64,000 nucleotides of DNA from positions 1 through 64,000 of the IMG/VR virus record IMGVR_UViG_3300025617_000977, one strand, 5' to 3'. Origin of the DNA: a virus. The notes below the pieces were generated by a model that made no database searches, was not told where the DNA came from, and saw only the letters and a list, made by a program, of their open reading frames with translations. Every line of letters begins with the position of its first letter. Position 1 is the stretch's first letter. Shown piece after piece: positions 56,771-63,078 of the stretch. The translations under genes and the position numbers were made by a program.

Positions 56771-57112
56771 ATGCCAAGCAATAGTGAAATAATTTTATCA
56801 GCAAATACTCATCCAGGAGACAGTACCGTAGAAACAATTACGGGCGAAAAGTTTAAAGGAGACGGCTACTACGGTCGTGCAGACGGTGTACACACTGTAC
56901 AATATAACTTTGACGGGTTAACTGGAACAATAACTATTCAAGCATCGTTGGCAGTAACACCAACTGATGCTGATTGGTTTGAAGTACATTCTTATACTGC
57001 GGCACAAGAAACTGCAAGTAAATATGCAAACTTTACTGGCAACTTTGTTTGGGTAAGAGCAGTAATTGAATATACTGATGGAACTATTAACAGCATTTTG
57101 CTTAACCACTAG
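56771..57112 (+). CDS. Small beta-rich virion-type protein
   Basis: 113 residues, all-beta in appearance, with YGRADGVHTVQYNFDG and GTITIQASLA strand pairs and a final WVRAVIEYTDGTI. No charge bias and no signal. Looks like a jelly-roll head-decoration or fibre module. Under a late promoter. Confidence 0.55.
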   Translation: MPSNSEIILSANTHPGDSTVETITGEKFKGDGYYGRADGVHTVQYNFDGLTGTITIQASLAVTPTDADWFEVHSYTAAQETASKYANFTGNFVWVRAVIEYTDGTINSILLNH

Positions 57113-57120
57113 GAGAAATT

Positions 57121-57387
57121 ATGCATTCTATTACAGTTGTATGGTCAAAAACAGAAGAAGATGTAGATGCTATTGTTGCTGAGAATGTAATTAACAGTTC
57201 TTCCACTGCATTGCTTGAGTCAGAAACCCATTACGAAATTTACGAATCAGACAAGGGCGAAACCGTCCTTGTTGTAGAAACCCACAAGAAACTAAGCGAA
57301 CAAGAATCGGATGAAGTTGCCGAATCTGTTGCAAATAGGTTGTTTGATTTAGGGTTTGATAAATTCGATATCGAAATCTCTGTATAA
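57121..57387 (+). CDS. Small acidic phage protein, unknown
   Basis: 88 residues, acidic, beta-alpha-beta layout (HSITVVWSKTEEDVDAIV, then YEIYESDKGETVLVVE). It follows the 56771 gene by 8 nt and has GGAGAAA before ATG. Not recognised. Confidence 0.5.
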   Translation: MHSITVVWSKTEEDVDAIVAENVINSSSTALLESETHYEIYESDKGETVLVVETHKKLSEQESDEVAESVANRLFDLGFDKFDIEISV

Positions 57388-57396
57388 CCATTTTGT

Positions 57397-57404
57397 GATA
57401 AATA
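57397..57404 (+). promoter_or_regulatory. Late promoter GATAAATA
   Basis: GATAAATA, 32 nt before ATG 57437; opens the run of genes with capsid-targeting-like N-termini. Confidence 0.62.
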
Positions 57405-57436
57405 CTTTATAACAAGATATAAAGGTTAGTACTACC

Positions 57437-58105
57437 ATGAGAAAAACGTTTAAAGATTATCTAGCAGAATCAGACGGATTTGGATCTTCACCTAAACCAA
57501 CAGTAAGAAAACCTGTTCGTTATGATCCTGATCAATCAATGCCAAGTATAATGAAATACGCATATCAACCGGATGTAACAAGAGCGTTGAGAAAAGCGGC
57601 GGACCTTTCAGATGATGCGCCTGTTTATTTTGACGATGCAGATCTAGTATATGGTGACGAAACTGTTTGGCCAAGATGCGGAGTAGATGATGACTGTACA
57701 TTCGGTGATGCGGTTAAAGCACTTAAAAAGTTTGCAAGCAAAGGTGAAAGTGAAATCGATCGTATTAAAGACCTATCAGGCATCACTGAGCAAACTATTG
57801 ACGATGATGACGATATTCACGAATGGTTTGGTGACATGTACTACAACGATGACGATATTGTAGACGAAGCAGAATATCAAGGACGTAAAGTTAAACTAGG
57901 CAAGCCTATGCAAGGTGATACTAAAAAGTTTAAAGTGTACGTTAAGAATCCAAAGGGCAACGTAGTCAAAGTTAACTTTGGCTCTAAAGAACATAAAATT
58001 AAAAAGTCCAATCCTAAACGTAGAAAGTCGTTTAGAGCAAGACATAACTGTGATAACCCAGGACCGCGTCATAAGGCACGCTATTGGTCATGTAGAAAAT
58101 GGTAG
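57437..58105 (+). CDS. Late protein with capsid-targeting-like N-terminus
   Basis: 222 residues. MRKTFKDYLAES resembles the T4 internal-protein targeting peptide MKTYQEFIAEA, with a gp21-type site LAE before S. Then an acidic middle (DDDDDIHEW) and a basic C-terminal domain (about 150-222) with GRKVKLGKPMQGDTKKFKV, KNPKGNVVKVNFG and a Cys/His/Arg-rich end (RARHNCDNPGPRHKARYW). Likely an internal head or DNA-associated protein; function unknown. Confidence 0.62.
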   Translation: MRKTFKDYLAESDGFGSSPKPTVRKPVRYDPDQSMPSIMKYAYQPDVTRALRKAADLSDDAPVYFDDADLVYGDETVWPRCGVDDDCTFGDAVKALKKFASKGESEIDRIKDLSGITEQTIDDDDDIHEWFGDMYYNDDDIVDEAEYQGRKVKLGKPMQGDTKKFKVYVKNPKGNVVKVNFGSKEHKIKKSNPKRRKSFRARHNCDNPGPRHKARYWSCRKW

Positions 58106-58111
58106 ACAAAT

Positions 58112-58450
58112 ATGAAATTTGATGATATAATAGATAGTAACAATGCTGACAACAGACCTAACTTTAATGTTGAAGACGATCTTCAATGTTTTATGAAGGA
58201 TGATACTATGTTTTATAGAAAAGAGTATTATCCTACAATGACTAAGTGTCAGGACTGTTATAACAAAGGCGATGCTAACAAAGGATTTAGTTTTATTCTA
58301 CCAATGATTGACAAAGGTGTTAATAGATATATTAAAACGTTTGACTTGCCATACGAAGCAAACGAATTATGCACACCAGATGAACGCAAAACACTTGCTC
58401 AAAAAATATATGACAGTGAAGTAGAGTCGTTTAAGGAAGGCGAGTACTAA
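58112..58450 (+). CDS. Small conserved-type late protein, unknown
   Basis: 112 residues. Asp/Asn-rich start (MKFDDIIDSNNADNRPN), then CQDCYNKGDANKGFSFILPMIDKGVN, given here for its single CxxC, and a helical C-terminus. Stop overlaps the next ATG. The N-terminus lacks a clear LxE site. Role unknown. Confidence 0.52.
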   Translation: MKFDDIIDSNNADNRPNFNVEDDLQCFMKDDTMFYRKEYYPTMTKCQDCYNKGDANKGFSFILPMIDKGVNRYIKTFDLPYEANELCTPDERKTLAQKIYDSEVESFKEGEY

Positions 58451-59403
58451 TGCGTTTAAGACAAATATTTGAAGCACCAGGAAAAGAAGTTAGTTTTGCA
58501 TTAGGCAGACTTAATCCAGCAACTAAAGGACACGGTCTCCTTGTTGAAGCACTTAAACAAGGACCTGGCGATTCGATTTTGTTTTTAACTGACCGGATTG
58601 CAAAATTACCAAGTGATCCGCTTCAAGCAAACGAAAAACTAGAATGGGCAAAGAAAAGTTTTCCAGATATTAACATCGAACTTGCTAAAAATATTATGTT
58701 TGCCGCTGTTGAACTTTACAAAAGAGGTTATACTGATGTAACATTTTTTGAAGGTGAAGACAAACTAGGAAAATTATTAGAAAAATACAACGGTGTTGAT
58801 TCAACACACGGTATGTTTAAATTTAATTCAATCAATTTTCAACGTCTAAAGCGCAATCCAGATGCTGATGATGCTTCGGGAATGAGTGCTAGTAAACTAA
58901 GACAATTTGTAATTGACGACGACTTTAAATCTTTCCAAGAAGGCGTTACAAAGCCTGCACAGCCTTATGCACAAAAAATGTTTGACACGCTAAAAAGCAG
59001 GCTCAGCAGTACAGAAGAAAATATTGATGAGTGGGTCGGTCCTGCTATTAATGCTTTGAAATATGGTAAACATGCATTTAAAATCGGTAAGTTCTTTTGG
59101 AACAACAAATGGGCTACAGCATTCCTTATTGGAAGTTGGAAAACTATTGGCTGGATACAAGATGCAATTGACTTTGTTGAGCCGTACTTAGATAATCCAA
59201 TTGCAAAAGCATTATTAAAATACGGATTACATGCAATACCAGTAGCAGTAGCAATTTACGGTGGTATAAAGTTGTATAATGCTATTAAAGATACTGATAA
59301 CGAAGAGGACTTTAAATCTGCACTTGAGAAGTTTAAAGCAGATGAAAAAGAATTACGTGGGTTAGAGCAAGAACTCATGGACACAATGCCAGGGAAAGCA
59401 TAA
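58450..59403 (+). CDS. Nucleotidylyltransferase-type enzyme with membrane-like tail
   Basis: 317 residues. ALGRLNPATKGHGLL (17-31) has the T/HxGH site (Thr25, His28) and GMSASKLRQF (144-153) the ISSTxxR-type signature of NMN/pantetheine adenylyltransferases. Residues about 200-285 are hydrophobic, with segments FLIGSWKTIGW and LHAIPVAVAIYGGI. The N-terminus MRLRQIFEAPG gives an I-F-E before A, a gp21-type cleavage site. NAD or CDP-metabolite synthesis delivered with the DNA is a hypothesis. Confidence 0.68.
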   Translation: MRLRQIFEAPGKEVSFALGRLNPATKGHGLLVEALKQGPGDSILFLTDRIAKLPSDPLQANEKLEWAKKSFPDINIELAKNIMFAAVELYKRGYTDVTFFEGEDKLGKLLEKYNGVDSTHGMFKFNSINFQRLKRNPDADDASGMSASKLRQFVIDDDFKSFQEGVTKPAQPYAQKMFDTLKSRLSSTEENIDEWVGPAINALKYGKHAFKIGKFFWNNKWATAFLIGSWKTIGWIQDAIDFVEPYLDNPIAKALLKYGLHAIPVAVAIYGGIKLYNAIKDTDNEEDFKSALEKFKADEKELRGLEQELMDTMPGKA

Positions 59404-59621
59404 TGGATCACGATTTAGATACTCTAAAAAGATTAGCAGGTGTCGGTGAATACGCATTTAAAGGTCTTCAAGCAGTTGAAGAAAATTTATCTATTACCGG
59501 AACTGAAAAAAGACGTATCGAAAAAGAAAAAGGTCTTAGACCTGGTGACCCGGATTGGTTCAAACTATGGTTTGCAAAGCCTCACTTAACTGGTGAGCGC
59601 CATTCAAAGGATGAACGATGA
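59403..59621 (+). CDS. Small conserved-type phage protein
   Basis: 72 residues. LRPGDPDWFKLWFAKPHLTGE is the core phrase (about 45-65), which recurs in marine phages as far as I recall. Charged N-terminal helix with LAGVGEYAF. No function. Overlaps both neighbours by 1-4 nt. Confidence 0.55.
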   Translation: MDHDLDTLKRLAGVGEYAFKGLQAVEENLSITGTEKRRIEKEKGLRPGDPDWFKLWFAKPHLTGERHSKDER

Positions 59622-61075
59622 AATTTAATGATGTAAAAGATATTAATAAAAAAGTTCCGGTTCCTAGATCATTTAAACATTATCATCAAATGGCTGAAAA
59701 TGGTGGACGCATTGTAAAAGGTGTTAACACAACTCCTGATGTAAGTACTGATGAAATTAAAACCCAAGCCGCAAAGTTTGGCAACAAAGTAGACAAAGAT
59801 GGACGTCCGCCCACACTAAGCAAAAAAGTTAAAGGCTCTAAAACAAATGTGCTGTTTAACTTAGGCATGTCCGAAAGCGTCAACGAGTCTAAAGAATTAG
59901 CATCAGCAAGTGAAATTTATGTAGACATGGACGGTGTTCTTGTTGACTTCTTTGGTGAATGGACTAAGATGATGGGTGTTAGTGATTGGAAGCAAATTAA
60001 AAATGTTGATCAAGCACTACAGAAAATTAGAGATAAAGACGACTTTTGGTTATCACTGAAGCCTACTAAGAATGCCGGTAAGTTGTTGTCTATTATTAAA
60101 AAAATTAAAGGCGAATATAATATTTTATCTGCTCCGTTGGCAGGAGATCCTAAAGCAGAACCTCACAAACGTGAATGGATTTCAAAATACTTAAAAGCGT
60201 TTCCACCTAAAAACGTTATCATTACAGCAGACAAACAAAAATATGCAACACAAGCAGACGGTACTCCAAACATTTTAATCGATGACTTTGGCCAAAATGT
60301 TTCTAAATGGGAAGCATCCGGCGGCGTTGGTTTTAAGCATAAAGATCATAAGTTTGAAAGAACTGCTACGCAATTAGCCGATTATATAAGTCCTGAGCGC
60401 AATGAAGAAATTGCAGAAATATTAGGCTTTACTACACGAACTCCAAAACGTGCAACAATAAAAAAGAAGCGTCCACCAGAAGAACTTAGCGTAAAAGACA
60501 AAGTAGCAAAACGTAGAGCAATGGCTGCTAAAGGCAATCCAGATGCTTTTAAATCGGGTGCAGTTAAAGAAGGTGATTTAGTATTAAATCATTCTAAATT
60601 ACGTTCTTTTATTATTGATATGATTTCAGATAAAATTAATAAAACTGATGATGTTGAACAACTTTCTAAATGGTTAAAGTTAATCGTAGGAAAAGAAGTT
60701 GCACCTCGAGGTGCTAAGAGTTATACTATTTCTGCAGAGGATGTGGTAGAAGCAATTTCAAAAATACAAAATCGTATATCAGAAGGTGATGCAATACCTA
60801 ATCCTAAAAATACATTCCTTACAAAATCAGACACAGCATACGATCATTATAAAGTAGGCACAAACTTAGCAAACTTAAAAAAAGTTCCAAAGGGTGCTAA
60901 CTATGACGAACCGGACATTGTAATTGCTCCATATGCAGGTCAAAAAGAAATGAAATATCTTATGAAGCAACTAAAGCGCATTGGTTACGATGTACAAGAT
61001 GCGGCTGGGTATAAAGATGCACATTACGATGAAGATTCTGGAAATGAGTCTAGATATCTTGTTGGGATTAAATAA
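59618..61075 (+). CDS. HAD-type 5'(3')-nucleotidase-like domain with extensions
   Basis: 485 residues. The central domain (about 98-265) has YVDMDGVLVDFFG (Asp103, Asp105), ILSAPLAG for motif II, and NILIDDFGQN for motif IV, as in deoxyribonucleotidase HAD enzymes. N-terminal 95 residues hold basic phrases and an SESVNES stretch; the C-terminal 200 residues are unassigned, ending in a YDEPDIVIAPYAGQKEMKYL block. It may dephosphorylate dNMPs; the long extensions suggest virion or complex association. Confidence 0.7.
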   Translation: MKFNDVKDINKKVPVPRSFKHYHQMAENGGRIVKGVNTTPDVSTDEIKTQAAKFGNKVDKDGRPPTLSKKVKGSKTNVLFNLGMSESVNESKELASASEIYVDMDGVLVDFFGEWTKMMGVSDWKQIKNVDQALQKIRDKDDFWLSLKPTKNAGKLLSIIKKIKGEYNILSAPLAGDPKAEPHKREWISKYLKAFPPKNVIITADKQKYATQADGTPNILIDDFGQNVSKWEASGGVGFKHKDHKFERTATQLADYISPERNEEIAEILGFTTRTPKRATIKKKRPPEELSVKDKVAKRRAMAAKGNPDAFKSGAVKEGDLVLNHSKLRSFIIDMISDKINKTDDVEQLSKWLKLIVGKEVAPRGAKSYTISAEDVVEAISKIQNRISEGDAIPNPKNTFLTKSDTAYDHYKVGTNLANLKKVPKGANYDEPDIVIAPYAGQKEMKYLMKQLKRIGYDVQDAAGYKDAHYDEDSGNESRYLVGIK

Positions 61076-61275
61076 TGCTGATATTTGAGATTACTGAAAA
61101 CTTTGCTGACGGTAAGAAAAAAGGCAAAAGCCGTCCAGGTAGAGTAAAGAAGTCAGGTGCTAGTTGCAATGGATCAGTTACAGCACTACGTAAACGTGCT
61201 AAGAACGCAAGCGGTGAGAAGGCTAAAATGTATCACTGGTGTGCTAATATGAAGTCAGGTAAGAAGAAGAAATAA
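61075..61275 (+). CDS. Small basic late protein with LxE/IxE-type N-terminus
   Basis: 66 residues. MLIFEITENFADG could be cut after I-T-E. The rest is highly basic: KKKGKSRPGRVKKSGASCNGSV, AKNASGEKAKMYHWCANMKSG, given in pieces. Two Cys. A DNA-binding internal head protein is a natural guess; no family function known. Confidence 0.58.
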   Translation: MLIFEITENFADGKKKGKSRPGRVKKSGASCNGSVTALRKRAKNASGEKAKMYHWCANMKSGKKKK

Positions 61276-61421
61276 TGGATATAGAACATTACGTTAAAAA
61301 GTATAAAGAACACGAAGAACGTAAAGCAACTACTAATGAACGTAATGACTATTGGAAGCAATATTCCAAAAAACAACTAGATCCTGAAACAAGTTTTGAT
61401 ATGGGAAAATACTCCTCGTAG
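61275..61421 (+). CDS. Very short charged protein
   Basis: 48 residues from ATG 61275 (TAATG overlap with the previous stop), ending TAG 61421. Helical and charged (IEHYVKKYKEHEERKATTNE, ending SFDMGKYSS). The overlap and clean frame support coding; nothing else known. Confidence 0.5.
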   Translation: MDIEHYVKKYKEHEERKATTNERNDYWKQYSKKQLDPETSFDMGKYSS

Positions 61422-61434
61422 ACACAGGAAAAAA

Positions 61435-61442
61435 GGTAAATA
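61435..61442 (+). promoter_or_regulatory. Late-promoter variant GGTAAATA, 5 nt before ATG
   Basis: GGTAAATA, GTAGT, ATG 61448; same spacing as the other compact elements, with one mismatch. Confidence 0.42.
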
Positions 61443-61447
61443 GTAGT

Positions 61448-62278
61448 ATGAAACTTAGAGAACTTACAGAATCAACAACAGTAACCGAAAATCCTTTAGC
61501 AGGTGCTCAACCAGCGGCAGGAGGTGCTCAACCAGCGGACGCAGATGCAAAACAAGCGGCTCAGAAGACAAGTATGGGTGCAAAACAAGCGGCGACTGCG
61601 ATGGGTGCTAAAGGCGGATCAGGCGCAATGATGCAAAAAGGATTAGATAAACTTTCAGCAGGTGGCGCAATGACTGGAGAACTTTCTAAACAAATTGCTC
61701 CATTTGCAAAGCAATTAAGTACTATTCTAGGTAATCAACAACTAAAACAAAAGTTTTTAGCACTTGTTAAGCAGGCAGAACAAGGCGGAGCAAATCAACC
61801 GGCTCCAGAATCATCTAACTATACACCAACAAGAGACGAGGATGATTATAATGCTAAACAAAAAGCATTGCAGGATATTCAAAAAGATCCGGAGACATCA
61901 AAAGATCCAGAACTTAAAAAAGAACTGATGAAGCGTAAAGCATCATTAGAAAAAGACAAGCCAGTAGACGAAGCAGACAGTATTATGCAATTAGCAAAAT
62001 TAGTGGCTGGAGCATCAAACACACAGCAAACTCAAGCATCAGATTTTGCTAACGAAATGAAAGCACTTGCTGGTATTACAACAGAAACGGCAACAGCCGG
62101 AGCAACTTCATCAGGTAACATTGCATCTGTTGCAAACCCGAGCATGGCGTACGGACAAAGAGGCAAAGACTCGAAAGGGTTGCCTAAGGCGCCACAAAAG
62201 AAAAATAAAGACGGCACAGCCAAGAATGCGTTAGATATTGATAACGGCTTAATGGGCGGGAAAACAATTAAAAGGTAA
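61448..62278 (+). CDS. Ala/Gln/Gly-rich late protein, capsid-targeting-like N-terminus
   Basis: 276 residues, low complexity (A, Q, G, K, T). MKLRELTESTTV offers an L-T-E before S. A second LAGITTETATAG occurs near 215. The middle has helical stretches (QLKQKFLALVKQAEQG). It looks like a scaffold, internal or packaged protein; no fold assigned. Confidence 0.6.
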   Translation: MKLRELTESTTVTENPLAGAQPAAGGAQPADADAKQAAQKTSMGAKQAATAMGAKGGSGAMMQKGLDKLSAGGAMTGELSKQIAPFAKQLSTILGNQQLKQKFLALVKQAEQGGANQPAPESSNYTPTRDEDDYNAKQKALQDIQKDPETSKDPELKKELMKRKASLEKDKPVDEADSIMQLAKLVAGASNTQQTQASDFANEMKALAGITTETATAGATSSGNIASVANPSMAYGQRGKDSKGLPKAPQKKNKDGTAKNALDIDNGLMGGKTIKR

Positions 62279-62283
62279 TCATT

Positions 62284-63078
62284 ATGAGAGAAAAACATTT
62301 AAAAGAAGATTTAGCAGACTTGGCGTATAAAGCAGAAAGCGATCACGAAGTACAGATGGCTCGTGCAGAGTTATATAAGATTGCAAAGTATGCTATTAAG
62401 ATGCATGATATGCTTAAAGGTGTTGAAGAACGCGAAGGACTTGAAGGTTGGGTGCAATCTAAAATTACTAAAGCCGCAGACTATATGGGCAGTGTTTATC
62501 ACCACATGGACTACGAACAAAAGTTTGACGAAGTCCAAGAAGCAAAGAAAGCAAAGCCAGACTTCCTCGATGTTGACAAAGATGGTGACAAGAAAGAGCC
62601 TATGAAAAAGGCTATTAAAGATAAAAAGTCAAAGCAAACAGACGAACAGTATGTACATGAAAGAGGCAGTAAGAAGAAAAAGAAAACTAACGAAGAAGCC
62701 CGTGATACTCATTGTTCAGACAAATGCTGTGGCGCAGATGTTAAAAGAGAAGATTGCAAATGTTCACCAGATTGCAAACATTGTAATTGTAATGCAACTA
62801 ACGTAGACGAAGGCAAGTACAAGAACGATGCACAGCGTAAAGCAGTACATGCTTCTAAAGCAAAAAAAGACAAGTACAAAGAATCGTTTGCAAATAAATT
62901 AGCAAACAAACTTGCAGAATCAAAAGGTTTATGTTCAGAGTGCGGCAACCCAAGTTACACTACACTCCCAGAAGAAAAGCAAAAAGGCGTTGACGGCAAA
63001 GTATGCTGGAAAGGCTACAAGCGCATGGGCACCAAGAAAAAAGGTGGCAAGACAGTAGACAACTGTGTAAAAATGTAA
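62284..63078 (+). CDS. Late Cys-rich, metal-binding-type protein
   Basis: 264 residues. Helical N-terminal half starting MREKHLKEDLADLAYKA. FLDVDKDGDKKEPM is an EF-hand-like loop. Then a dense Cys cluster, CSDKCCGADVKREDCKC with CSPDCKHCNCN, and a C-terminal module with CSECGNPS and VCWKGYKRMG ... DNCVKM. All Cys would bind zinc or another metal in the virion or cytoplasm. The 'DVDKDGDKKEPM' and 'VCWKGYKRMG' phrases recur in marine phage proteins. Followed by a strong terminator. Confidence 0.6.
   Translation: MREKHLKEDLADLAYKAESDHEVQMARAELYKIAKYAIKMHDMLKGVEEREGLEGWVQSKITKAADYMGSVYHHMDYEQKFDEVQEAKKAKPDFLDVDKDGDKKEPMKKAIKDKKSKQTDEQYVHERGSKKKKKTNEEARDTHCSDKCCGADVKREDCKCSPDCKHCNCNATNVDEGKYKNDAQRKAVHASKAKKDKYKESFANKLANKLAESKGLCSECGNPSYTTLPEEKQKGVDGKVCWKGYKRMGTKKKGGKTVDNCVKM

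Follow-up and report, generated by a model that had tools for sequence, protein, structure and literature searches.

In bacteriophage T4, the internal head proteins IPI, IPII and IPIII share an N-terminal propeptide of the form M-K-x-(F/Y)-x-x-(F/Y)-(I/L)-x-E, with a predicted gp21 cut after the glutamate; the first ten residues of IPIII are enough for packaging, and the gp21 protease cuts after (L/I)xE (PMC9026906). T4 Alt, an ADP-ribosyltransferase that is packaged and injected, has a very short propeptide, MELITE-, and is a precedent both for enzyme cargo and for short leaders. Among cyanophages, a nucleotidylyltransferase-type enzyme was found by mass spectrometry in purified particles of S-SM1 (PMC3037559) and purified virions of S-SZBM1 (PMC9146016), and such an enzyme was likewise detected in purified virions of S-SCSM1, where the authors leave co-purification open (PMC9602691), and of S-CREM2, where they allow it as well (PMC10665884). 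A tag-based explanation, or a link between capsid targeting and cyanophage or pelagiphage enzymes, was not found in the open literature, subscription papers excluded. Here we describe a gene string in the first 64 kb (the window) of the 71,806-bp IMG/VR record IMGVR_UViG_3300025617_000977, from the lineage of T4-like marine myoviruses. The string of open reading frames (ORFs) at 56771–63078 is placed between a ClpA-like gene (54501) and a DNA polymerase gene (64748, beyond the window), and it is very likely that its late part, 57437–63078, encodes internal head proteins that are targeted, cut and injected by means of an N-terminal leader. The phage thus probably delivers ready-made enzymes into its host along with the DNA. 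The analysis supports a variant of T4 capsid targeting, in which a repeat of the capsid-protein junction in ORF 61448 is the new element.

Leaders of the late gene string

The leader-bearing genes and their proposed propeptides are as follows (↓ marks the predicted or proposed cut).

57437..58105, + strand: 222-residue ORF with the T4-type leader MRKTFKDYLAE↓S and a basic, Cys/Trp-containing C-terminus, RHNCDNPGPRHKARYWSCRKW; matches phrog_7595 on residues 142-222
57437..57469, + strand: its leader MRKTFKDYLAE, proposed capsid-targeting propeptide, predicted cut after E11 (compare T4 ipII/ipIII)
58450..59403, + strand: nucleotidylyltransferase, 317 residues, leader MRLRQIFE↓APG, C-terminal helical region poorly predicted
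58450..58473, + strand: its eight-residue leader MRLRQIFE, from comparison of homolog leaders
59618..61075, + strand: HAD-type 5'(3')-deoxyribonucleotidase, 485 residues, 27-residue leader, DMDGV at residues 103-107
59618..59698, + strand: its leader, ending PRSFKHYHQMAE27↓NGG; the E27 column is invariant in a 17-sequence alignment
61075..61275, + strand: basic 66-residue protein, leader MLIFEITE↓N with tandem IxE (IFE, ITE), two Cys in the basic body
61448..62278, + strand: 276-residue protein, leader MKLRELTE↓S with tandem LxE (LRE, LTE), capsid-junction copy near the C-terminus
62284..63078, + strand: 264-residue protein starting MREKHLKE↓DLADLA, basic C-terminus CWKGYKRMG...NCVKM; phrog_4359

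The initial annotation had picked out five of these genes (57437, 58450, 61075, 61448 and, with less certainty, 62284) as sharing a leader with an early (L/I)xE site. All five begin where it placed them and with the N-termini it read, and the early (L/I)xE falls at residues 9-11 in 57437 (LAE) and at exactly residues 6-8 in the other four (IFE in 58450, ITE in 61075, LTE in 61448 and LKE in 62284). Gene overlaps support the start codons: ORFs 58450, 59403 and 61075 each start in overlap with the preceding stop codon, and 59618 overlaps the end of 59403.

The comparison with T4, also made at the outset, is borne out by ORF 57437, whose tag is nearly identical to that of the internal proteins. 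T4 ipII and ipIII start MKTYQEFIAEA, and MRKTFKDYLAES of 57437 aligns with this peptide position by position with one inserted residue, the hydrophobic or aromatic targeting positions (residues 4 and 7 in IPIII) being matched by F5 and Y8. Homologs of 57437 begin MTKKFRDYLAE, MKNFKEYLSE or MKTFQEYLKE, and F, L and E are invariant across 23 leaders aligned on F..YL. Like the T4 internal proteins, the late-string products have different mature bodies behind one tag. They differ in that most leaders of the window are about eight residues long, often with tandem (L/I)xE, the cargo includes metabolic enzymes, and the genes stand in a dedicated string between the ClpA-like and DNA polymerase genes. 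The short leaders retain the hydrophobic residues, at positions 3 and 6, with a spacing altered relative to the T4 tag. Each late-string protein would carry a short capsid-targeting propeptide, either of T4 length (MRKTFKDYLAE) or shortened to about eight residues in the form M-(K/R/x)-hydrophobic-x-x-(I/L)-x-E.

The motif is concentrated in the string. Over the 71,806-bp record, four of eight late-string genes have (L/I)xE at exactly residues 6-8, against 0 of 91 other kept ORFs (Fisher p=1.9e-5), and five of eight against 6 of 91 have it within the first 14 residues (p=3e-4). Among IMG/VR relatives, where the counts are descriptive, the latter motif occurs in 196/349 late-string homologs and 318/2349 other proteins (~14%). 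A strict pattern, M-(K/R)-hydrophobic-x-x-hydrophobic-x-E, fits 5.0% of distinct N-termini, 0.16% of internal Met positions and 0.08% in shuffles, and M-x-[LIVF]-R-E-[LIVF] matches 155 of 2772 protein starts versus 2 of 15748 internal Met. No leader is present on the other nucleotidylyltransferase- or HAD-like genes of the record (44382, 23567 and 64160). Two upstream members of the string, both lacking a leader, provided internal negative controls.

56771..57112, + strand: upstream string member without leader, starting MPSNSEIILSANTH; weak match to a virion structural PHROG
57121..57387, + strand: upstream string member without leader, starting MHSITVVWSKTEED; internal negative control

Early (L/I)xE was nearly absent from the homologs of these genes (1/47 for 56771 and 2/27 for 57121), and was found in 46/60 homologs of 62284.

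Tagged enzymes and the detection of homologs in virions

The assignment of ORF 58450 as a nucleotidylyltransferase was confirmed by a match to phrog_3041 (E=5.5e-33), and two catalytic motifs are intact, their key residues being invariant or nearly so in 26 homologs.

58522..58533, + strand: TxGH nucleotide-binding motif (TKGH, residues 25-28); G27 and H28 invariant (alignment A1)
58885..58902, + strand: SxSxxR motif (SASKLR, residues 146-151); S146 and A147 invariant, S148 and K149 nearly so

A direct sequence match in the PDB was not found. The predicted core (predicted local distance difference test score, pLDDT, ~90) best matched PPAT and NMNAT structures (E from 2.5e-5, TM to target <=0.69), so that motifs and predicted fold together place the protein in the nucleotidylyltransferase superfamily (PPAT/NMNAT/cytidylyltransferase fold), with fold matches that do not discriminate substrates. 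The prevailing leader of its homologs is M(F/L/R)LRELFE↓AP, in which L3 and R4 are invariant and E8 is kept in 22 of 27 distinct leaders; tandem LxE-LxE occurs in 29/52 family members, and the homolog in jumbo phage RaK2 has no leader.

The cyanophage T4-GC190 protein, a cytidylyltransferase/NMNAT-like virion protein, has a nucleotidylyltransferase domain homologous to that of 58450 behind a T4-type tag: MKSFFQFLSEA in S-SM2, MKKFSAFLTEA in P-SSM7, Syn33 and S-CAM22, MKNFSSFLTEA in S-CREM2 and MRFRQFIIEA in S-SZBM1. In T4-GC190 forms the tag runs to 9 or 10 residues, and an additional mini-domain of 40 residues often precedes the enzyme; 58450 has an eight-residue tag and a different C-terminus. 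At nine residues, the S-SZBM1 tag is intermediate between the T4 length and the eight-residue leader found in the window. The mini-domain, A..L.L...G(Y/H)G.Y.D..G..V....G.L, spans ~40 residues behind the tag of cyanophage nucleotidylyltransferases (L200, L201, L202, L203 and L205) and recurs in two unrelated S-CREM2 (L194) proteins, gp12 (E=1.9e-11) and the kinase gp14 (E=7.6e-15); it is a putative adaptor behind the tag.

For ORF 59618, the HAD-type identity proposed initially held (Pfam NT5C, E=1e-8; PF06941, 35.7 bits against a cut-off of 24.8; HAD motif I, DMDGV), while its leader proved longer than those of its neighbours, with the junction at E27. The protein shares HAD motifs with the NT5C family and is weakly similar by sequence to cytosolic 5'(3')-deoxyribonucleotidase structures; the profile match does not take in its leader, the conserved GRIVKGVNTT segment or its C-terminal extension, and beyond the HAD core the structure was predicted with low confidence. 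The leader/body junction in the window reads PRSFKHYHQMAE↓NGGRIVKG. In many relatives the conserved body follows an eight-residue leader, as in MKLRQLYE↓HGGRIVKG, and the same body, GGRIVKGVNTTPDV, is found behind MKLRQLYE, MRFKDLTE, MRWHEISE, MKISDLLE and others; leaders are swapped as modules, and the enzyme bodies stay constant. Longer nucleotidase homologs (alignment A2) contain an NGHHR motif, ParB/sulfiredoxin-like, which the window copy lacks.

Two analyses used patterns that were not taken from the window. The T4-derived pattern M-K-x-(Y/F)-x-x-F-(I/L)-x-E, applied to 193 S-CREM2 proteins rather than the whole genome, marked three virion-detected proteins (a SAM hydrolase, an APH-like kinase and the cytidylyltransferase) versus 0 of 156 undetected ones (p=0.0066), and virion-detected gp13 (MKDLHSFLTE) and gp12 (LRFASFMAEA from residue 17) fit it with small deviations. 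The strict eight-residue pattern had no match in S-CREM2, because this phage uses the ten-residue form. The proteome of S-CREM1, at 14 proteins, was too shallow to extend the comparison. S-CREM2 gp12 (L194:7704-10313) is annotated as Cas9; it had no Pfam match and matched only a PHROG of unknown function, so that the Cas9 label is doubtful.

The initial annotation had also suggested looking for the same peptide in front of other marine phage enzymes, and a blind scan of IMG/VR DNA found a T4-type peptide mostly on nucleotidylyltransferases. The pattern, encoding M-K-x-F-x-x-F-(L/F)-x-E-A, hit at least 120 stretches; of 80 loci among the matches listed, 71 had a credible ORF where the pattern fell, and nucleotidylyltransferases made up 50 of the 71. 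Further tagged cargo among the matches listed included DUF6267, DUF5661, DUF192 and WYL_2 proteins. A permuted control pattern with an equal number of specified letters gave 18 stretches, mostly short or internal frames, and 0 nucleotidylyltransferases. One DUF6267 protein (L226:6418-7623) combines a perfect T4-type tag, MKSFQTFLNEA, with a KWDG ligase-like motif, and proteins similar to it adjoin the nucleotidylyltransferase in HTVC008M, Melnitz and S-SZBM1.

The capsid-junction copy in ORF 61448 and other string members

ORF 61448 and its homologs repeat, far from the leader, the sequence that follows the head-protease cut of the major capsid protein gp23, E↓TATAGATSAGNIA.

62084..62140, + strand: module E↓TATAGATSSGNIASVANP, residues 213-231 of ORF 61448; matches the gp23 maturation junction L-x-E↓(S/T)ATAGATSAGNVATLN of related phages

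In relatives the gp23 junction reads (W/Y)L(S/N/T/A)E↓(S/T)ATAGATSAGNVATLNRV, which fits the L-x-E rule, and 61448 shares with it the E↓TATAGATSxGNIA junction. When searched with a gp23-based query, the 61448 module scored 67; shuffling every protein once gave a top score of 37. The module is also carried, with scores of 55-74, by about thirty positional homologs of 61448. Short members of the family consist of hardly more than leader and module (MLIRELFQKDLE↓ETATAGGTSAGAIATVANP...). The likeness is confined to about 17 residues: 61448 had no capsid family match, only the junction segment is shared, and the protein is not a capsid protein. In S-CREM2, a 24-residue stretch of the virion-detected gp160, encoded a few genes from the cytidylyltransferase, copies the gp23 arm of that same phage (score 95, against 39 for the next best protein); its sequence differs from the 61448 version, and PHROGs classes this segment as major head protein (phrog_696). 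The junction copy was not found in the two S-SZBM1 stretches examined. Apparently, the copied junction is a second head-protein marker that has not been described before, and it may act as a further protease site, as a docking arm or in both roles.

The module could instead be a copy of the mature N-arm of the capsid protein that clips into the shell, with no protease junction involved. The similarity to gp23 lies on the P-prime side only (about P1 to P16'), with none before the cut, and gp160 of S-CREM2 is alike with a different sequence and no clear LxE before the module; against this, the P1 Glu is kept in nearly all 61448 homologs. We regard the pure N-arm reading as quite possible, leaning slightly away from it. 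As a separate observation, an LAGI motif stands just before the ETATAG junction of 61448, and a similar motif occurs at the start of the 59403 family, one of two further members of the string.

58112..58450, + strand: 112-residue ORF starting MKFDDIIDSN, weak member
59403..59621, + strand: 72-residue ORF starting MDHDLDTLKRLAGVGE; family start D-x-x-x-L-x-x-LAG(V/I)xE

Homologs of 58112 often start in a leader-like way (MLLREIFDMK, MKLKEFTDID, MKLVEFDEHT), and the window copy has no (L/I)xE. The start of the 59403 family might, speculatively, be a second leader type. Basic mini-domains with paired Cys/Trp recur in the leader-bearing 57437-58105, 61075-61275 and 62284-63078 (RHKARYWSCRKW; KMYHWCANMKSG; CWKGYKRMG...NCVKM); such C-terminal or whole-body domains are possibly DNA-binding tails.

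Proposed packaging and delivery

A gp21-like protease, whose absence would speak against processing, is encoded by relatives with the same gene string. In one of them (G002, 267.8 kb), a Peptidase_S77 protease (E=4.5e-27) adjoins gp22-, gp23- and portal-like genes, and portal-linked relatives keep the GE(L/V)xHP and GVSSRG segments of T4 gp21. Portal loci also contain a family of small proteins starting MILRELF(Y), for example MILRELFYFD, of which 55/62 match MxLRE; the LREL leader is thereby connected with the head cluster. As an aside, CxxxCxxC-like radical-SAM signatures mark many genes of two relatives, G001 (L093-L100) and G003 (L101-L108), which also encode a giant ~4960-residue protein near baseplate-like genes.

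Several points weigh against packaging and delivery by such leaders. The head protease was not found in the 71.8-kb record, a fragment without head genes, and the window shows no enrichment of the T4 late promoter TATAAATA (2 found, 7 expected). ORFs 58112 and 59403 lack the canonical motif, the nucleotidase leader of the window has 27 residues with Met at P3 (MAE) rather than L/I, and the eight-residue leaders are shorter than T4 propeptides. All patterns except the T4-derived one were set after the sequences had been seen, and the related contigs are not independent; for both reasons family-level p-values come out too small. Finally, the S-CREM2 cytidylyltransferase was detected by 3 peptides, with co-purification allowed by the authors (PMC10665884).

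Among explanations for the leaders as a whole, the strongest alternative is that they form a head-assembly motif that recruits scaffold or assembly helpers to the prohead core, the proteins not being ejected. The MILRELFYFD-type gene that G002 has between portal and protease would suit such a role, as would the gp23-arm copy in 61448 and the degradation of the T4 core proteins gp22, gp67 and gp68 (PMC9026906). It accounts poorly for the intact catalytic motifs of two cargo proteins and for homologous enzymes in finished virions, and we consider it rather unlikely. Still less probable, to the point of being very doubtful, is that the peptides are intracellular partnering or localisation tags unrelated to heads and that the enzymes in particles are contaminating late proteins; co-purification is raised in two of the proteome papers, but the tag coincides with the T4 capsid-targeting sequence as established by experiment, in S-CREM2 it picks out virion-detected proteins and none of the undetected ones, and separate studies detected the same enzyme family in the particles of four phages. 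Chance, or a composition bias at translation starts (many phage proteins start MK...), was rejected: about 14% of other proteins do have (L/I)xE within 14 residues, but the fixed-spacing patterns are strongly enriched at N-termini over internal Met and are also low in shuffles, the exact spacing is seen in none of the 91 other genes, specific leader residues including E are conserved, and the permuted control was negative.

The favoured reading remains one of internal head proteins delivered by a leader. The leader would bring each protein into the scaffold core as the prohead forms, a gp21-type head protease would cut after the Glu and free the mature protein inside the head, and the mature cargo would enter the host with the DNA, as suggested by analogy with the T4 internal proteins and with Alt, whose enzyme class differs and whose catalytic domain is unrelated. 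The junction repeat of 61448 may provide another cleavage site or a means of docking to the shell. That enzymes of this string are packaged in heads, as the initial annotation proposed, is backed by the homologous nucleotidylyltransferases in virions of four cyanophages; its further steps, processing and injection, as well as targeting in this phage, the presence of the nucleotidase in virions and the substrates, we infer. The nucleotidylyltransferase and the deoxyribonucleotidase would act on host nucleotide pools, or on nicotinamide adenine dinucleotide (NAD) or coenzyme A (CoA) pools, from the first minutes of infection, and it is plausible that they adjust NAD/CoA or deoxynucleotide pools, or counter a nucleotide-depleting defence, early in infection.

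More broadly, we think it fairly likely that marine T4-like phages (Kyanoviridae and relatives) share a general enzyme-delivery system, with a portable long or short tag, sometimes an adaptor, and phage-specific junction copies as a second head-directed module. The proposed cargo comprises nucleotidylyltransferase, deoxyribonucleotidase, SAM hydrolase, kinase-like and other unrelated proteins. The T4-type tag offers a testable mechanism for the repeated detection of NMNAT/cytidylyltransferase-like enzymes in cyanophage virions, and of a SAM hydrolase and a kinase in those of one phage, and it predicts new virion cargo from sequence alone. It connects the head biology of T4 with phages that are among the commonest in the ocean and moves the expected time of action of tagged enzymes to the first moments of infection; if this is true, so-called auxiliary metabolic genes of this class would in many cases act at injection and not after expression.

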